Shown here in pieces: positions 3,087 to 9,829 of a stretch of 11,152 nt of DNA. The notes below the pieces were generated by a model, which did not search any database, was not told where the DNA came from, and saw only the letters and a program-made list of their open reading frames with translations. This DNA is from Fibrobacter succinogenes. GTDB lineage: Bacteria > Fibrobacterota > Fibrobacteria > Fibrobacterales > CADBQJ01. The stretch lies in NCBI GenBank assembly GCA_902796785.1, contig CADBQJ010000153.1:1-11152 (forward strand). Direction: 5' to 3'. The number at the start of each line of letters is the position of its first letter. Within the stretch, counting starts at the first letter, position 1. A program made the translations under genes and the position numbers.

Positions 3087-3917
3087 ATGGCAAATCCCGT
3101 CGTGATGGTCAACGGTCTTCCCGGAAACATGGGCCGCGAAGTGGCCCGCGCCGCGCTCCGGCGCGGCTGGACGCTCGTCCCCTTCGCCCTGACCGGCGAG
3201 GCGATCCGCGAGGACTCGATGGAGCTCGACGGCATGGAGATCGCCTTCCTCAAGGACCACGACCGCGACGAGCGGATCGGCGAGATCCTGATGGACCGCC
3301 CCGGCCTGATCGCCGTGGACTACACCCATCCCGACGCGGTCAACGGAAACGCCGAGTTCTACGTGCGCCACAAGATCCCCTTCGTGATGGGGACCACGGG
3401 CGGCGACCGCGCGAAGCTGCGCGAGCTGCTCTCCGGCGCCGGGCTGGGCTGCGTGGTGGCGCCCAACATGGCCAAGCAGATCGTCGGCTTCCAGGCGATG
3501 GTCGAGCGGGCGGCCGAGGAGTTCCCCGGGCTCTTCGCCGGATGGAAGCTCTCCGTGCGCGAGTCGCACCAGAGCGGCAAGGCCGACACCTCCGGCACCG
3601 CCAAGGCCGTCGTGGCCTCCATGGCGAAGTGGGGGCTGGACGCCAGCGTCGAGAAGATCGAGAAGATCCGCGAGCCCGCGGCGCAGCTGGCCTTCGGCGT
3701 TCCCGAGGAGTCGCTGAAGGGGCACGCCTTCCACACCTACTCGATCGACAGCCCCGACGGGACGGTCCATTTCGAATTCCGCCACAACGTCTGCGGCCGC
3801 GCGATCTACGCCGAGGGGACCTGCGACGCGGTGGCCTTCCTGAAGGCGAAGCTGGAGTCGGGCGAACACCGCCTCTTCTCCATGTCCGACGTCCTCCGCG
3901 AGGGCGTCGGCGGCTAG
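3087..3917 (+). CDS. dapB: 4-hydroxy-tetrahydrodipicolinate reductase, plant-like subfamily
   Basis: 276 residues. The enzyme reduces the DapA product with NAD(P)H in the lysine/diaminopimelate pathway, which feeds peptidoglycan and protein synthesis. The N-terminal dinucleotide-binding turn is VNGLPGNMG (8-16). The loop MGTTGGDR (101-108) and APNMAKQIV (125-133) follow. The catalytic segment is ESHQSGKADTSGTA (159-172), in which H161 and K165 match the catalytic His and Lys of DapB and SGTA is the substrate-binding loop. VDYTHPDAV (77-85) is the usual D-x-(S/T)-x-P-like segment. The GTTGGDR, PNMAKQIV and HQSGK forms match the plant-like DapB subfamily rather than the E. coli type (HHRHK). 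The start has a strong Shine-Dalgarno sequence. No other dap gene is adjacent. A hairpin repeat array and a terminator-like structure lie downstream. Confidence 0.95.
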   Translation: MANPVVMVNGLPGNMGREVARAALRRGWTLVPFALTGEAIREDSMELDGMEIAFLKDHDRDERIGEILMDRPGLIAVDYTHPDAVNGNAEFYVRHKIPFVMGTTGGDRAKLRELLSGAGLGCVVAPNMAKQIVGFQAMVERAAEEFPGLFAGWKLSVRESHQSGKADTSGTAKAVVASMAKWGLDASVEKIEKIREPAAQLAFGVPEESLKGHAFHTYSIDSPDGTVHFEFRHNVCGRAIYAEGTCDAVAFLKAKLESGEHRLFSMSDVLREGVGG

Positions 3918-3955
3918 TCCCGCTTTCATTGCGCGTGGTTTCGAAATCCGCTGAT

Positions 3956-3980
3956 CGCGCGGAGCCGGACGGCCCGCGCC
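3956..3980. other. diverged first hairpin of the repeat, supported by compensatory changes
   Basis: This copy keeps the fold of the two later hairpins while its bases differ. Its stem is GCGCGG (3957-3962) with CCGCGC (3974-3979), then bulged A3963, then GCCG (3964-3967) with CGGC (3970-3973). Against the hairpin at 4021-4045, stem pair 6-20 is G-C instead of C-G and pair 9-18 is G-C instead of C-G. Both sides changed in each case. The bulged A is at the same place in all three. Confidence 0.6.
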
Positions 3981-4127
3981 ATCGTTCGCCCGAGCTTCTT
4001 CTGAATCTTACTCCACTTTTGGCGCCGACCCGAACGGGCGACGCCATCGTTCGCCCGGGCTTCTTCTGAATCTTACTCCGCTTTTGGCGCCGACCCGAAC
4101 GGGCGGCGTCATCGTTCGCCCGGGCTT
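3956..4127. repeat. 65-bp tandem repeat with bulged hairpins, about 2.6 units
   Basis: The unit is a 25-nt imperfect palindrome, then a conserved box ATCGTTCGCCCGRGCTT, then a spacer TTCTGAATCTTACTCC(A/G)CTTTT-like. Hairpins lie at 3956-3980, 4021-4045 and 4086-4110; boxes start at 3981, 4046 and 4111, exactly 65 bp apart. The stretches 3981-4045 and 4046-4110 differ at only four positions. The third unit breaks off after its box. Each hairpin has seven outer base-pair positions, a bulged A on the left arm, four inner pairs and a 2-nt centre. The array fills most of the gap between the convergent dapB and cyclase genes. No open frame or homology to a known repeat family was recognised. A REP-like repeat, a structured RNA or a transcription-buffering element are all possible. 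Confidence 0.85.
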
Positions 4128-4157
4128 CCCCTTTTTATTCGCCCGGGCTTTATTTTG
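4118..4157 (+). terminator. probable rho-independent-type terminator for dapB
   Basis: GCCCGGGC occurs at 4118-4125 and again at 4141-4148. The two can pair as an 8-bp GC stem around a 15-nt pyrimidine-rich loop, followed directly by a T-rich tail (TTTATTTT, 4149-4156). This fits termination of plus-strand transcripts from dapB. On the minus strand the stem is not followed by a T-run, so it does not look like a terminator for the cyclase. The tail overlaps the last codons of the cyclase. Each box is itself palindromic, so other foldings exist. Confidence 0.5.
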
Positions 4158-7044
4158 ATTTGGCGGTGTAGACCGCGTCCCACTTCTCGCCCGGCGCGAC
4201 CGGGGGATGCTCGCGGAACTCGCGGCACCGCGCGGCGAAGACGTGCGACGGCGTGGTGCGGCATCCCTTCTGGCGGTCGGGATGGTTGGGCTCCAGCTCC
4301 TGGCATTGCGCGAAGAGCGCCTCGGCGCGGTCCCATTCCATCGCCTCGTAGGCGGCGCGCGCCTCGTTCCAGAGCGCGAGCAGGCGCTCGAGTTCGGGCG
4401 TGAGCTCCGACCGTTCGCAGAGCGGTTCGAAGACCAGCACCGGCTCGCTCTTGCCCACCACGCGCAGGCGGTCGATCGGGCGCCCGACGACGTCGTCGCC
4501 GGCCAGCTTCATCGTGGCCTCCGAGGCGAGGACGTAGACGCCGTACTGCTTCGCGCCGCTCTCCAGGCGCGCGGCCAGGTTGACGTCGTCGCCCATCATC
4601 GTGTAGTTCATCCGGATCGAGGAGCCCATGTTCCCGGTGACGATCTCGCCGGAGTTGATTCCGATCCGCATCCGCATCTCGCGCACGGCGTCGGGCCACT
4701 TGTCGCCCTCCGAGCTCCACTTCGCGCGCAGCTCCGCCAGCCGCTTCTGCATGGCCAGCGCCGCGAGCAGGGCCTTGCGCGCGTGGTCGGGGACGGTGAC
4801 GGGGGCGCCGAAGAAGGCGATGATCGCGTCGCCCTCGTATTTGTCGAGCGTGCCGCCGTTCTTCAGCAGGATGTCGGTCATGGCGGTCAGGTACTCGTTG
4901 ATCAGCTCCACCAGCCGGGCCGCGTCGCCGATCTTCTCGGAGAAGGTGGAGAAGCTCTGGATGTCGGTGAAATAGGCGGTCAGCAGCTTCTTCTCGCCGC
5001 CGAGCGCGGGCTTTTCGCCGGTTTCGAGCATGCGGTCGATCAGCTCGGGGGAGATGTAGCTCTTGAAGGCCGCCACGGCGTGCCGGCGGTCCTTGGCCTC
5101 CACCAGGTAGCGCAACGCCATCGAGAGCAGGAAGGCGAGGACGGCGGCGACCAGGGGGTCGACGATGCCGTGGAAGACGCCGGACTCCACGAACTCCTTG
5201 AATCCCAGCGAGAAGCCGACCAGCGCCAGCGCGACGGCGAGCGGGCCCGAGACGAAGGGGGGCAGCGTCCAGGCCAGGAGCGCGACCAGCAGCGCGGCCA
5301 GGACGACGACGAGCGCTTCCGAAAGGGGCGGCGGGACGCGCGTGGCGTGCCCGTTCAGGATGTTCTCCAGCAGGTTCGCGTGGACGAAGATGCCCGGGAA
5401 GACGCGGTCGCCGGGCGCGGAGACGATGTCGAAGAGGCCGCTGGCGGTGGAGCCCAGCACGAAGACCTTGCCCCGGTAGAATCCGTCGTCGATCTCGCCG
5501 GCGAGCACGCTGGCGTAGGAGATTGTCTTGAAGGAGCCCATCCCCTTGCCCGCGAAGCCGATGCGGACCGCGCCGCGTTCGTCGACCGGAACCTCGAGGC
5601 CGCGCCCGACGAAGAGCGTGTCGCCCTCCCCGAGCTTCTCCAGCGCCTCTTCGGGCAGGTCGAGCAGCTCGCGCAGCGTCTCGCCCTTCAGCAGGAGCGC
5701 GTTCGAGACGAGCGTCCCGTCGGATTCGCGGCGCACGCGGATCTCCTGCGAGAGGACCGCCGAGCGGCCCGGCTCCAGCGAGGCGGCGCGTTCGCGGGCC
5801 TCGCGCAGCGTCCGCGCGGTGTAGGCGCAGATTTCGACCTCCTCGCCGTCCTCGTCCTCGAGCGCGAGGTCGCCCTCGCCGTCGCTCTCCATCGCCTTCC
5901 GGAGAAGTTCGCCCTCGAGCGTCTGGCCGTCCTCGACGTCGGCCTCGAGTTCGCCGTCCTGGCCGCGCCGGAGGACCACCGGCGTGGTCGCGCGCAGTTC
6001 GTCGGACCCGGGCGGCAGCGAGTCGATCGCCCCCTTCGAGGCGCGCAGCCGGGCGATCATCCCGGGCGTCAGGCCCGGGAGCGAGGCGGCGATCCCCTCC
6101 GGCGCGCGGAAGAGCCGCAGCGGGGGAGGCAGCCGGACGGCGCGGCCCGGCTCCACGACCAGCTCGTCGGGCGAGGCGCCCGTCAGCAGCAGCGCGGTCT
6201 GGAGCGCGAGCACGGGGTACTGGCGCGTCGGGCCCGTGGACGAGTCGGCGGGGAAGGGGATGGAGTGGAGCAGCGGCTCGCGGCGGTGGACGCCGTCGGG
6301 GTCGGGCACCACGTTGGTCAGCCCCACCCGCGCGGCGGCTTGCGAGAGCTCGGGGAAGACGTTGTCGAGCAGAGCCCAGCCCCACGGGGAGCGCCAGTCC
6401 TCCCGGATCGTCGCGGAGGCGGGGTTGTTCGACTCGAACCACTCCTCGGTCGCGAAGGGCTTCCAGGCGCTCTGGCTGTAGGCGCTCTTCGGGCTGCCGG
6501 TGGCGCCGACGACCACGCGGCCCGAGCGGCGCACCTCCTCGATCAGCGCGGAGTCGGCGTTGAACCCGCCGCGCAGCACGGGGCGCAGCCGCTCCATCTC
6601 GCGGGCGTCGAGCGCCTTCGAGAGGACCGATTCCGCCCGCTCGGCCTCGCGCCGGCCGAAGTCGGCGTTCTGGAAGAGGATGTCGAAGACGATCGCGGAG
6701 GCGCCCCCTTCGGAGAGGCGGCGGACGACCTCGGCGTGGTGGGTGCGGGGCCAGGAGTTGAAGGGGCCGAGGCGGTCGAGCGAGGTTTCGTCGACGTCGA
6801 CCACCACGATGTTCGGCTCGCGGAGGGGCCGGTCGGCGCCGCTCTCCGCCTCGAAGGCGTATTTCATCGACCAGTCGAGGTCGTAGAGGACGTTCTCCAG
6901 GTTGTCGCGGAGGGCGCCGAGCGTGCCGAAGGCGGGGATGACCCAGAGCGCGACGGCCGCGGCCGCGAACGCGCTCCCCAGGGCGAGGAGCGCCCGTCTC
7001 GGCCTCTTCGGGATCCTTCTCATGCCGCGGGGAAGCAGTGCCAT
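4150..7044 (-). CDS. CHASE2-domain membrane adenylate cyclase (class III)
   Basis: 964 residues. TM1 is at 17-40; an extracytoplasmic CHASE2 sensor spans about 45-570 (VVVDVDETSLDRLG at 80-93, AIVFDILFQNADF at 117-129, FVLGSTASGLFDIVSAP at 528-544, PGIFVHANLLENIL at 550-563). Three TM segments follow at about 575-593, 598-615 and 627-646, then the cyclase domain at about 685-870. Metal ligands are D694 (YFTDIQSF) and D739 (KYEGDA). K735 and T815 are the purine-selecting residues, and N822 and R826 the transition-state pair (GDDVNLAARLE). The Lys/Thr pair predicts cAMP production, class IIIb. A TPR-like helical pair (about 885-922) and a C-rich tail ending with a PP...W motif close the protein. 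CHASE2 is enlarged by about 175 residues (about 305-480), including an acidic stretch (361-403). The start is ATG at 7042-7044; an ATG seven codons later is an alternative. It is divergent from ftsK and convergent with dapB. Confidence 0.95.
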   Translation of the reverse strand: MALLPRGMRRIPKRPRRALLALGSAFAAAAVALWVIPAFGTLGALRDNLENVLYDLDWSMKYAFEAESGADRPLREPNIVVVDVDETSLDRLGPFNSWPRTHHAEVVRRLSEGGASAIVFDILFQNADFGRREAERAESVLSKALDAREMERLRPVLRGGFNADSALIEEVRRSGRVVVGATGSPKSAYSQSAWKPFATEEWFESNNPASATIREDWRSPWGWALLDNVFPELSQAAARVGLTNVVPDPDGVHRREPLLHSIPFPADSSTGPTRQYPVLALQTALLLTGASPDELVVEPGRAVRLPPPLRLFRAPEGIAASLPGLTPGMIARLRASKGAIDSLPPGSDELRATTPVVLRRGQDGELEADVEDGQTLEGELLRKAMESDGEGDLALEDEDGEEVEICAYTARTLREARERAASLEPGRSAVLSQEIRVRRESDGTLVSNALLLKGETLRELLDLPEEALEKLGEGDTLFVGRGLEVPVDERGAVRIGFAGKGMGSFKTISYASVLAGEIDDGFYRGKVFVLGSTASGLFDIVSAPGDRVFPGIFVHANLLENILNGHATRVPPPLSEALVVVLAALLVALLAWTLPPFVSGPLAVALALVGFSLGFKEFVESGVFHGIVDPLVAAVLAFLLSMALRYLVEAKDRRHAVAAFKSYISPELIDRMLETGEKPALGGEKKLLTAYFTDIQSFSTFSEKIGDAARLVELINEYLTAMTDILLKNGGTLDKYEGDAIIAFFGAPVTVPDHARKALLAALAMQKRLAELRAKWSSEGDKWPDAVREMRMRIGINSGEIVTGNMGSSIRMNYTMMGDDVNLAARLESGAKQYGVYVLASEATMKLAGDDVVGRPIDRLRVVGKSEPVLVFEPLCERSELTPELERLLALWNEARAAYEAMEWDRAEALFAQCQELEPNHPDRQKGCRTTPSHVFAARCREFREHPPVAPGEKWDAVYTAKSK

Positions 7045-7117
7045 TTCCCAAAGCGTAGAATATTCGGGGAGGGGAGGCCGCGAAAACTATCTAAAGAAAT
7101 ATCTATTATTGCGGACG
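7045..7117. promoter_or_regulatory. AT-rich divergent promoter region, cyclase/ftsK
   Basis: These 73 bp separate divergent start codons and are clearly richer in A and T than the surroundings. The palindrome GAATATTC lies at 7058-7065. On the minus strand TATTCT (7062-7057) could be a -10 box for the cyclase, 12 bases before its ATG. On the plus strand TATTAT (7104-7109) could be a -10 box for ftsK. Good -35 boxes are not evident, so promoter positions are tentative. Confidence 0.45.
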
Positions 7118-9829
7118 ATGGCGAAGAAAGGCAAATCGACGAAATCCAAGGCCGGCGGCAAGAAGTCCGAAACCGCCTCGTCGCCGCTGACGCGCGAGGT
7201 CCTGGGCTGGGTCTTCATCCTCATCTCCCTCTTCGGGCTGGGGTGCGTCTTCGCGGTCGAGGGCTTCCAGCATCCCCGCGCCGGCGACGTCTTCGGGCGG
7301 TTCGCCACGACGGTGATGGAGCTCTTCGGCGCGCTGCCCGCGCTGCTCTTCCTGCTCTGGGGCGTCCTCCTGGGGCTCAAGCTGATCGGCCTCTCCTTCG
7401 TCCGCGTCTCCGGGCGGCTGCTGGCGGTCACCTTCCTGCTCTGCGTCGAGACGCTCTGGCTGATGAGCGCCTCCTACGCCGTCAAGGGCTCCTCCGCGGT
7501 CGTGGACTACGCCAACGGCGGCGGGCACGTCGGCCGCTTCCTCATGCGCATGGTGGTCGTCCCGATCGGCGGCCGGACCGTCCTCGCCCCGCGGATCGCC
7601 GGCGCCGTGGCCGTCTTCTTCACGCTGATCTTCGGATTCCGCTGGAGCCCGGTCGCCGCCATCGAAAAGGTCTATTCCGTCCTCTCCGCCGGATTCCGCC
7701 GCCTGCGCCGTTCGCGCGCCGACCGCGACGAAGAGGCCCTCAAGAAGGCCCATCCCGAAATGATCACGAGCCCCGCCGAAGAGGAGATCCGCGCCCGCGC
7801 CACCGGCCGGAACGCCGTCCCTCCCGCCGAGGAGAAGCAGCCCCTCACCGCCGAGGAGTTCCGCCGCGCCGCCGACGACGAGATGATCGCGCGCCTGGAG
7901 AGCCTCACGCCCGAGGAGGCCAGCAAGCTCGACCCCATCCTCCTGGAGAAGATGATCGCCGTGCGCGACGCGCGCGACGCCGCCCGCGTCCGCAACAGCT
8001 GGATCCTGGGGATGGACCGCGACCGCGGAATCCCGCGCGCCGGCGAGAGCGCCCCGTCCGAGCAGTCGCCGCTGATGAGCGAGCCCGCTCCCGATTCAGC
8101 ATCCACCCCCGCTCCTTCCGCGAGTCCGAACGGGACGCAGGACGATTCTTCCTCCGCCGCCACGCCCGAATCCGCCGCTGCTCCTGCCGCGTCCCCGAAC
8201 GACTCGCGGGACGATTCCTCCTCCCGCCCGGATTCCGATTCTCATGAAGCGCTTACCCGCGCCTTCTCCGTCGACGAGCTGAAATCCTTCGGCGGCGCCC
8301 GGCCCGAAGCCCCGAAGCCCGCCCCCGCGAAGCCCGCGGCCCCGCCTCCGCAGAAGCCCTACGTCGTCCCCGACTTCCTCTCCATCCTCCCCGAGCCGAA
8401 GCGCCAGACGACGGCCCTCTCCGAGGCCGATCTCGACAACATCGCCCAGCGCATCGTGGACGCGCTGCGCAGCTTCCGCGTGCCCGCGCAGTGCGAGAAC
8501 AAGTCGCCCGGCCCGGTCATCACCTGCTACGAGCTCTCCCTGGCCCCCGGCGTCCCCGTGGCCCGCGCCGCCGCGCTCGACAAGGAGATCGCCATGGCGG
8601 CGCACGTGAAGGACGTGCGCATCGAGGCGCCGATCCCGGGCAAGGACACCATCGGCATCGAGGTCCCGAACCCCGTGCGCCAGATCGTCTACTTCCGCGA
8701 CATCCTCAACGACGCCACCTGGCCGCCCGCCTCGGCGGCGCTCCCCGTGGCCCTGGGCTGCGGCACCGTCGGGCAGCACATCGTCTTCGACCTGGCCCGC
8801 GCCCCGCACCTGCTGGTGGGCGGCGCCACCGGCTCGGGGAAGTCGGTCTGCGTCAACACCATCCTCTGCTCGCTGCTGGCCACCCAGACGCCCGACGACC
8901 TGCGGCTGATCCTGGTCGACCCCAAGGTGGTCGAGCTCTCCCTCTACGCCGAGATCCCGCACCTGCTGACGCCCGTCATCACCGACCCCGACAAGACGGT
9001 CCGCATGCTCGAGTGGCTCTGCAACGAGATGGACCACCGCTACGAGATCCTGGCCCGCGCCCGCGTGCGCGAGCTGCGCTCCTTCAACTCCAAGCAGGCC
9101 GCCGGCGAGTTCGCGGGCGTCCTCCCCGAGGAGGAGGACCGCAAGATGCCCCGCCTGGTGGTCATCATCGACGAGTTCGCCGACATCATGGCGCAGGCCG
9201 GCAAGGAATTCGAGAAGTGCGTGGCGCGCATCGCCGCCAAGGCCCGCGCGGTGGGCATCCACCTGGTGCTCGCCACCCAGCGCCCCGACGCCAAGATCAT
9301 CACGGGCAAGATCAAGTCGAACCTCCCTTCGCGCATCGCCTTCCGCACCGCGCAGAACTTCGACTCGCGCACCATCATCGGCCGCGACGGCGCCGAGAAG
9401 CTGCTCGGCAAGGGCGACATGCTCTTCATGGCCGGCGACTCGCCCGACGTGGTCCGCGTGCACGGCTGCTTCCTCTCCGACGACGACGTGAAGAACGCGC
9501 TCGACGCCGTGGTCGGGCAGGGCGTCGTCCTCGACCGCATCGAGGACTTCCCCTCCGCCGACGAGGAGGACGGGGAGGACGGCGGCCAGGGCCCGCTCGA
9601 CCCGCTCTTCGAGGAGGTGGCGCGCTACGCGCTCGACGGCGGGATCTCCATCTCCGAGATCCAGCGCACCTTCTCGCTCGGCTTCGCCCGCGCCGGCCGC
9701 GTCTTCAACCAGCTGAAGAGCTACCGCGTCATCAGCCCCAAGAAGGACGCCGCGGGCAAGCGCAACCCGGCGCTGATGAACGAGCAGGAGCTCGACGAGT
9801 TCCTCTCCCAGTTCCGCGGGGGCAGGTGA
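7118..9829 (+). CDS. ftsK: FtsK/SpoIIIE family DNA translocase
   Basis: 903 residues. A Lys-rich N-terminus (MAKKGKSTKSKAGGKK) precedes membrane segments at about 28-48, 66-92, 99-118 and 157-175. A charged and then Pro/Ala/Ser-rich linker spans about 195-415. The motor domain spans about 430-800: Walker A GATGSGKS (569-576), DPKVVELSLY (601-610), Walker B VVIIDEFAD (681-689), LATQRPDAKIITG (718-730), SRIAFRT (738-744) and LLGKGDML (762-769). A C-terminal gamma-type winged helix (about 826-900) should read chromosome polarity. The protein is expected at the division septum, pumping DNA and helping dimer resolution. Length and layout are normal for the family. The ATG at 7118 is chosen because the frame upstream is antisense to the cyclase and lacks membrane protein character. 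There is no clear Shine-Dalgarno, and a TATTAT box about 8 bp upstream would leave almost no leader. The linker holds a 23-residue-period duplication. The stop is one base from the next gene. Confidence 0.96.
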   Translation: MAKKGKSTKSKAGGKKSETASSPLTREVLGWVFILISLFGLGCVFAVEGFQHPRAGDVFGRFATTVMELFGALPALLFLLWGVLLGLKLIGLSFVRVSGRLLAVTFLLCVETLWLMSASYAVKGSSAVVDYANGGGHVGRFLMRMVVVPIGGRTVLAPRIAGAVAVFFTLIFGFRWSPVAAIEKVYSVLSAGFRRLRRSRADRDEEALKKAHPEMITSPAEEEIRARATGRNAVPPAEEKQPLTAEEFRRAADDEMIARLESLTPEEASKLDPILLEKMIAVRDARDAARVRNSWILGMDRDRGIPRAGESAPSEQSPLMSEPAPDSASTPAPSASPNGTQDDSSSAATPESAAAPAASPNDSRDDSSSRPDSDSHEALTRAFSVDELKSFGGARPEAPKPAPAKPAAPPPQKPYVVPDFLSILPEPKRQTTALSEADLDNIAQRIVDALRSFRVPAQCENKSPGPVITCYELSLAPGVPVARAAALDKEIAMAAHVKDVRIEAPIPGKDTIGIEVPNPVRQIVYFRDILNDATWPPASAALPVALGCGTVGQHIVFDLARAPHLLVGGATGSGKSVCVNTILCSLLATQTPDDLRLILVDPKVVELSLYAEIPHLLTPVITDPDKTVRMLEWLCNEMDHRYEILARARVRELRSFNSKQAAGEFAGVLPEEEDRKMPRLVVIIDEFADIMAQAGKEFEKCVARIAAKARAVGIHLVLATQRPDAKIITGKIKSNLPSRIAFRTAQNFDSRTIIGRDGAEKLLGKGDMLFMAGDSPDVVRVHGCFLSDDDVKNALDAVVGQGVVLDRIEDFPSADEEDGEDGGQGPLDPLFEEVARYALDGGISISEIQRTFSLGFARAGRVFNQLKSYRVISPKKDAAGKRNPALMNEQELDEFLSQFRGGR
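8125..8227. repeat. imperfect 69-bp duplication in the FtsK linker
   Basis: The encoded ASPNGTQDDSSS (residues 335-346) and ASPNDSRDDSSS (358-369) are 23 residues apart, and the underlying DNA matches with scattered, often synonymous changes. Linker length in FtsK is variable, so this is probably neutral expansion. Confidence 0.6.

Follow-up and report, generated by a model that had tools for sequence, protein, structure and literature searches.

Bulged hairpins arrayed downstream of dapB are copies of a small, dispersed intergenic repeat resembling REP-type palindromes

The closest described counterparts of the element reported here are REPs. Sections of one account of these sequences (PMC3733652) describe sub-families in which the stem carries alternative residues that remain complementary, bulges of 1 bp in GTAG-24, and a placement in other bacteria mainly between convergent and codirectional open reading frames (ORFs), near 3' ends. 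Excerpts of a second account (PMC2817692) put REPs at usually more than 100 per genome, and some of those tabulated there have as few as 6 copies at ≤2 mismatches. In Escherichia coli, REPs located within 15 nt of a stop codon lower translation, according to portions of a third (PMC12306157).

We analyzed a stretch of 11,152 nt, referred to as the window, from a metagenome-assembled genome (MAG) of an uncultured member of the Fibrobacterales. The gap between the stop codon of dapB (3917) and that of a convergent CHASE2-cyclase gene (4150) contains three 25-nt bulged hairpins at a spacing of exactly 65 bp, and the box ATCGTTCGCCCGRGCTT directly follows the 3' side of each (HP1, HP2, and HP3). 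A preliminary description of this DNA had located the hairpins at 3956-3980, 4021-4045, and 4086-4110 and had reported a box after every one of them; coordinates, spacing, hairpin sequences, and boxes all hold on the sequence. Tandem Repeats Finder (TRF) run on the window independently recovers a period of 65 with 2.3 copies and 95% matches at 3977-4128. The features are as follows, by window coordinates:

3087..3917, plus strand: dapB (dihydrodipicolinate reductase), the upstream neighbor
3956..3980, no strand: HP1 bulged hairpin, stem version B (G6-C20, G9-C18), loop GGAC
3981..3997, no strand: box 1, ATCGTTCGCCCGAGCTT
3998..4020, no strand: spacer, 1 difference from the spacer at 4063-4085
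4021..4045, no strand: HP2 bulged hairpin, stem version A (C6-G20, C9-G18), loop GAAC, mismatch at 5-21
4046..4062, no strand: box 2, ATCGTTCGCCCGGGCTT
4063..4085, no strand: spacer, near-copy of 3998-4020
4086..4110, no strand: HP3 bulged hairpin, version A, G-T at 2-24, duplicate of HP2
4111..4127, no strand: box 3, ATCGTTCGCCCGGGCTT
4118..4161, plus strand: possible dapB terminator, from fold and sequence
4137..4150, no strand: lone box ATTCGCCCGGGCTT without a hairpin of its own, running into the minus-strand cyclase stop codon
4150..7044, minus strand: CHASE2 and adenylate/guanylate cyclase gene, the convergent neighbor, stop codon 39 nt from HP3

At the far end of the cyclase gene, the TTG start at 6902 of the listed ftsK ORF (6902-9829) falls inside this divergent gene; the true ftsK start is probably downstream of 6902, near the MAKKGKSTKSKAGGKK stretch.

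Part of the array is a simple copy. Four positions distinguish the 65-bp unit 3981-4045 from the unit 4046-4110, and HP2 and HP3 are a plain 65-bp duplication that should be counted as about one independent observation. When the HP1 and HP2 units are compared from hairpin to spacer, 7 of the 25 hairpin positions differ as opposed to 2 of the 40 others (Fisher p 0.02). The simplest account of the history of the array is an older hairpin-box-spacer-hairpin-box pair, the second part of which was then duplicated.

The element is also not confined to this locus; the preliminary description had named occurrence at this locus only as a finding that would count against a selected structure. A blastn search of the source genome with the window stretch, which requires no training, located the hairpin and its box at two further gene ends, C219:3846-3895 (E 9e-9) and C41:4525-4573 (E 7e-7), giving five copies at three places. 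Both outside modules lie between genes (GGCGCCGACCCGAGAGGGCGGCGCC-ATTGTTCGCCGG at C219 and GGCGCGGAGCCGAACGGCCCGCGCG-ATTATTCGCCGG at C41) and keep the bulged A and the box, with 10 of 10 stem pairs intact at C219 and 9 of 10 at C41 (G-G at 1-25). A covariance model trained on those same five copies returns them at E values of 1.1e-9 to 6.6e-9, and the next match in the genome scores E 0.36 among the best 150 of 2401 candidates.

The box by itself is a far less specific marker. A box-only pattern matches 46 sites in the source genome and 78 in G001, a genome of the same genus, compared with 16 and 8 for reversed-pattern controls, which are weak because TTCGCCGGG is codon-like. Among the 84 of these 124 sites that were inspected (45 in the source genome and 39 in G001), a bulged-A hairpin with at most one broken pair accompanies the box at three, namely C219, HP2, and HP3; the pattern misses the boxes of HP1 and C41. 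At one further site (C161) the bulged A is present but two pairs are broken, and the remaining inspected sites have no such hairpin. ORF overlap cannot divide box sites into coding and intergenic, as long frames also cover the known copies. A hairpin on C83 was set aside, since its bulge is a G and it has no box.

Pairing within the stem is retained while the sequence changes. Base by base, the stem is as first described: the pairs at 6-20 and 9-18 are C-G in HP2 and HP3 and G-C in HP1, the C-A mismatch of HP2 at 5-21 becomes C-G in HP3, and HP3 has a G-T wobble at 2-24. HP1 additionally has a C-C mismatch at 1-25. With the outside loci included, version A (C6-G20/C9-G18) is present in HP2/HP3 and C219 and version B (G6-C20/G9-C18) in HP1 and C41, so that two versions with paired swaps, each found at more than one place, indicate that pairing is kept. 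Across the five copies, 94% of the 50 pair cells hold standard pairs, a share that falls to 36 to 52% in controls with the 3' partners shifted by 1 to 3 columns. Two pairs covary and 5 of the 10 are invariant in these five sequences; in 500 shuffles, the covariation score was equaled or exceeded 15 times and the number of doubly changed pairs 276 times. Support of the kind expected from selection is thus real but thin, coming from five sequences and two swapped pairs. Pairing retained through sequence change, on which the original proposal was based, is also seen at the loci outside the window; the proposal's exclusion of mere duplication is only partly right, because HP2 and HP3 are a 65-bp duplication. 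The box tells a different history from the stem. By eye, the window boxes group together and C219 groups with C41, whereas by stem HP1 groups with C41 and HP2/HP3 with C219; this disagreement implies that the paired four-position swap either arose twice or was exchanged between copies.

As isolated 25-mers, the window hairpins and the two outside copies are stable on both strands, with predicted energies of -13 to -21 kcal/mol, and against 200 shuffles each the five copies give z scores of -2.4 to -4.5 on the plus strand and -2.2 to -3.9 on the minus strand. The folding advantage shrinks or vanishes when the box and tail are added: HP2 with 20 nt downstream gives a z score of 0.05, with 94 of 200 shuffles as good and a centroid that is a different fold, and HP3 with 25 nt downstream gives -1.38, with 22 of 200 as good. 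The whole region 3918-4149 scores -2.2 (plus) and -2.7 (minus) against shuffles, values similar enough that neither strand is singled out. A conserved switch in which the box pairs with the hairpin was rejected, as CGGGCGA against TCGCCCG is possible in HP2 and, by eye, impossible in version B.

Hairpins of the bare geometry are common in this genome of approximately 70% GC. We scanned both strands for 7 bp, a bulged A, 3 bp, and a tetraloop, allowing G-U and at most one broken pair, and recovered 116 matches in 223,091 sampled bases (20 contigs of the same genome, excluding those that carry the copies) and 10 in the window. None of the 116 background hairpins has TTCGCC within 13 nt downstream, whereas 3 of the 10 window hairpins do, and these are HP1 to HP3. 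It is the box, not the geometry, that distinguishes the three window hairpins.

All three loci in the source genome are at gene ends. Two are between convergent genes (dapB and the cyclase gene; rpmE and a leuA-like gene, with the C41 copy), and the third, C219, precedes a small ORF, dnaN, and a RecF/SMC-like gene in a gap between codirectional genes. At each locus the stop codon of a minus-strand gene lies on the box side, at distances of 39, 15, and 22 nt from the hairpin. Separately, a terminator-like hairpin is located 3' of rpmE in both the source genome and G001 (L003 1440-1469 and L219), and it could also serve the convergent leuA-like gene. Between this shared hairpin and the leuA-like stop codon, the repeat is present in the source genome only: the gap here is 78 nt with the hairpin, compared with 20 nt and no hairpin of that kind in G001. 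The G001 counterpart of the C219 gap contains a different hairpin. The first 4 kb of the dapB contig of G001 contain nothing that matches the cyclase significantly (best E 0.06); dapB thus has another downstream neighbor there, and the array sits at a rearranged junction (3087-4150).

Within the phylum, the bulged hairpin was detected with confidence only in the source genome. The covariance model gave no strong match in G001 (best E 0.29 among 150 candidates scored) and, among the best ≤40 candidates from each of 165 further genomes, two borderline matches, G069 (E 0.02) and G049 (E 0.04), which were rejected as lying inside a histidinol dehydrogenase gene and a 187-aa ORF, respectively. Pattern scans of the viral_contigs and genome_contigs collections, from which the source genome is possibly absent, returned no hits, and blastn against plasmids and phages gave no match.

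G001 has a dispersed family of its own, in which a GCGCC-NNN-GGCGC hairpin is directly followed by a CATC[GA]TNCGC box and then by ACTGGCGACTAGTCCC-type tracts (copies at L222 1617-1642, L221 844-869, L224 739-764, L226 702-727, and L227 677-702). The family occupies 10 distinct places at E ≤1e-5 in the stretches searched, 5 of which are the training copies, and ORF prediction places those five between convergent ORFs. With the three source-genome loci, convergent genes therefore flank 7 of 8 loci and 1 of 8 is codirectional, an excess with P 0.0004 under an assumed baseline of one quarter and with G001 loci that were chosen by pattern. The five nontraining places were left out of this count, one of them (C5) sharing a gap with a counted locus. 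One copy, at C30, is not strictly intergenic: the ORF that approaches from the hairpin side extends into the element and ends inside it.

Both families have the GCGCC foot directly before CATC[GA]TNCGC and a gene-end site, convergent at the five G001 loci examined, but the G001 hairpins have a 3-nt loop, no bulged upper stem, and ACTGGCGACTAGTCCC-type tracts after the box. A profile of the G001 family matches the window copies and C219 at E 1.3 to 2.4 and does not include C41 among matches at E ≤50, and its best hit in the source genome is an unrelated place (E 0.15). The window and the G001 family have GCGCCATCGTTCGC in common, but the G001 sample also contains four other 14-mers from 3918-4149, so that the shared sequence is no proof of descent. 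At ≤1 mismatch, GGCGCCATCGTTCGC has 8 matches in G001 and 0 with the control pattern. Five of the 8 are in the hairpin family and are the loci used in the context count; C5:19954, C74, and C46, which have no GCGCC-NNN-GGCGC hairpin, were left out. A wider search with this pattern found matches in 26 of 41 genomes, and among the 30 loci displayed the f2 ones look coding by eye. In stretches of four f2 genomes (400 kb), CATCGTTCG occurs once and ACTAGTC four times, and visual inspection showed no such hairpin next to any of them. The core ACTAGTC itself occurs 0 times in 223 kb sampled from the source genome versus 12 times in 395 kb of G001. Taken from sequence likeness, a common origin of the two repeats would be suggestive only.

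With a probability of about 0.55, we interpret the element as a lineage-specific, REP-like intergenic palindromic repeat that has been amplified locally in the window and acts as a 3'-UTR hairpin. The array would then be a local amplification of a small dispersed repeat, consisting of the 25-nt bulged hairpin and the box ATYRTTCGCCSG, that appears restricted to this uncultured Fibrobacterales lineage and occupies the short strip behind stop codons, mostly those of convergent genes. Such an element may be tolerated or favored in 3' UTRs, in the manner of small REP-type palindromes elsewhere. We infer that it is cotranscribed with the gene whose stop codon precedes it, and at the end of that gene the GC-rich stem would probably act as a barrier to 3' exonucleases or delay polymerase or ribosomes; transcription, an effect on RNA, and the spread of copies are all predictions of this interpretation. 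The position of the stem behind stop codons, mostly without a U-tract, makes a REP-type hairpin in the 3' UTR more likely than a terminator; the main competing explanation is a selfish palindrome.

A bulge and a box beside the hairpin foot are features of the sites on which single-strand transposases act. The same combination is conserved here, and a possible though less probable explanation is a mobile palindrome, selfish or neutral: a transposase acting in trans would use its folded single strand as substrate, and its place at gene ends would simply reflect where insertion is tolerated. Dispersed copies, the orthologous rpmE-leuA gap without such a hairpin in G001, and stem and box groupings that disagree among loci, as exchange would produce, are all consistent with mobility. 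However, a search for the Y1/RAYT transposase (PF01797) matched neither the source genome (92% complete) nor G001, while the control matched 10 of 14 named genomes (6 above the cutoff); in addition, the window hairpins have no GTAG/CGTC tag, and no target duplication is evident. A more elaborate and rather unlikely version envisages a genus-level 3'-end module of uncultured Fibrobacterales that would act on convergent transcript ends and be moved by a mobilizer other than RAYT, with a constant GCGCC foot and CATCGTTCGC box and an exchangeable hairpin interior (a 3-nt loop in the sister species and two bulged stems here).

That the hairpins form a transcription-terminator array for the neighboring genes seems improbable. 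The minus-strand hairpin at C219 precedes ACTTTTTT, and a different hairpin occupies this gap in G001; in the window, GCCCGGGC of box 3 pairs on the plus strand with GCCCGGGC of the lone box across a loop of 15, followed by the T-rich TTTATTTTGATTT. The 7-bp form of this stem, from 4119, has a computed energy of -13.9 kcal/mol, and the long-loop stem is a possible dapB terminator. Yet by eye a U-tract is missing from both strands at four of the five copies, the rpmE-leuA gap already holds a canonical-looking terminator, and a scan of 3700-4400 gave 0 terminator-like sites compared with 1.0 in shuffles, although its loop limit excludes a 15-nt loop and it therefore misses the 4118-4161 stem. 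A DNA site at which a protein reads the box together with a cruciform or hairpin is more doubtful still: the box and the stem are conserved to about the same degree, and the box side faces the minus-strand stop codon at every locus, but the copies are few, their neighboring genes are unrelated, and there is no candidate protein. Plain tandem duplication of GC-rich sequence, with no family behind it, would account for HP2/HP3 and for a geometry that is common by chance, but it is contradicted by the two further loci with hairpin plus box and by the lack of a box at all 116 chance hairpins, and we give it almost no weight.

The initial assessment that the hairpins belong to no known family stands at the level of sequence: Rfam gives four window matches, all below the gathering score, and the sole one that overlaps the array is anti-hemB (19.2 bits versus 49.5, E 1). 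In kind, the element resembles REP-type intergenic palindromes. An integron attC site was rejected on motifs only, and a CsrA-binding site was rejected because GGA is confined to the HP1 loop. Intrinsic terminators are similarly GC-rich stem-loops at gene ends, with the difference that the U-tract is mostly missing here.

In anatomy and position the element is REP-like, without the features that define REPs. Its size is that of a REP, at 25 nt with a loop of 4 and at three loci between genes. Sections of PMC3733652 describe REPs as 20- to 40-bp imperfect palindromes that are intergenic and mostly behind genes, with alternative stem residues and bulges, and as singletons that may be reiterated in tandem with flanking DNA, all of which apply here. 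The unpaired GTAG/CGTC tag, located at one stem end in the two REP super-families named after it, is missing: GTAG is absent from both strands of 3918-4149 (the outside copies were judged by eye only), and CGTC or its complement occurs there only at 3968, 4040, and 4107, within the hairpin loop or arms and not at the foot. Further differences are that no RAYT was found, that the box of 12 to 17 nt is one-sided, and that there are five copies rather than a REP-like high number, in a 92% complete MAG of 299 contigs whose assembly may have lost repeats. The copies in the array are also tandem and direct, whereas most REP families, in the descriptions excerpted here, favor head-head or tail-tail dimers. 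The stop-codon REPs of E. coli, as presented in parts of PMC12306157, share a stable hairpin behind the stop codon (15, 22, and 39 nt here), but only one of our three loci is within 15 nt. A literature search of titles and abstract openings yielded no account of such a repeat in Fibrobacter, nor of the dispersed family in G001. A hairpin repeat does not overturn established knowledge; if our interpretation is right, it adds a REP-like repeat for a phylum for which that search met none, and, lacking both the usual tag and a detected RAYT, it offers a case for asking how palindromes of this type spread without RAYTs.
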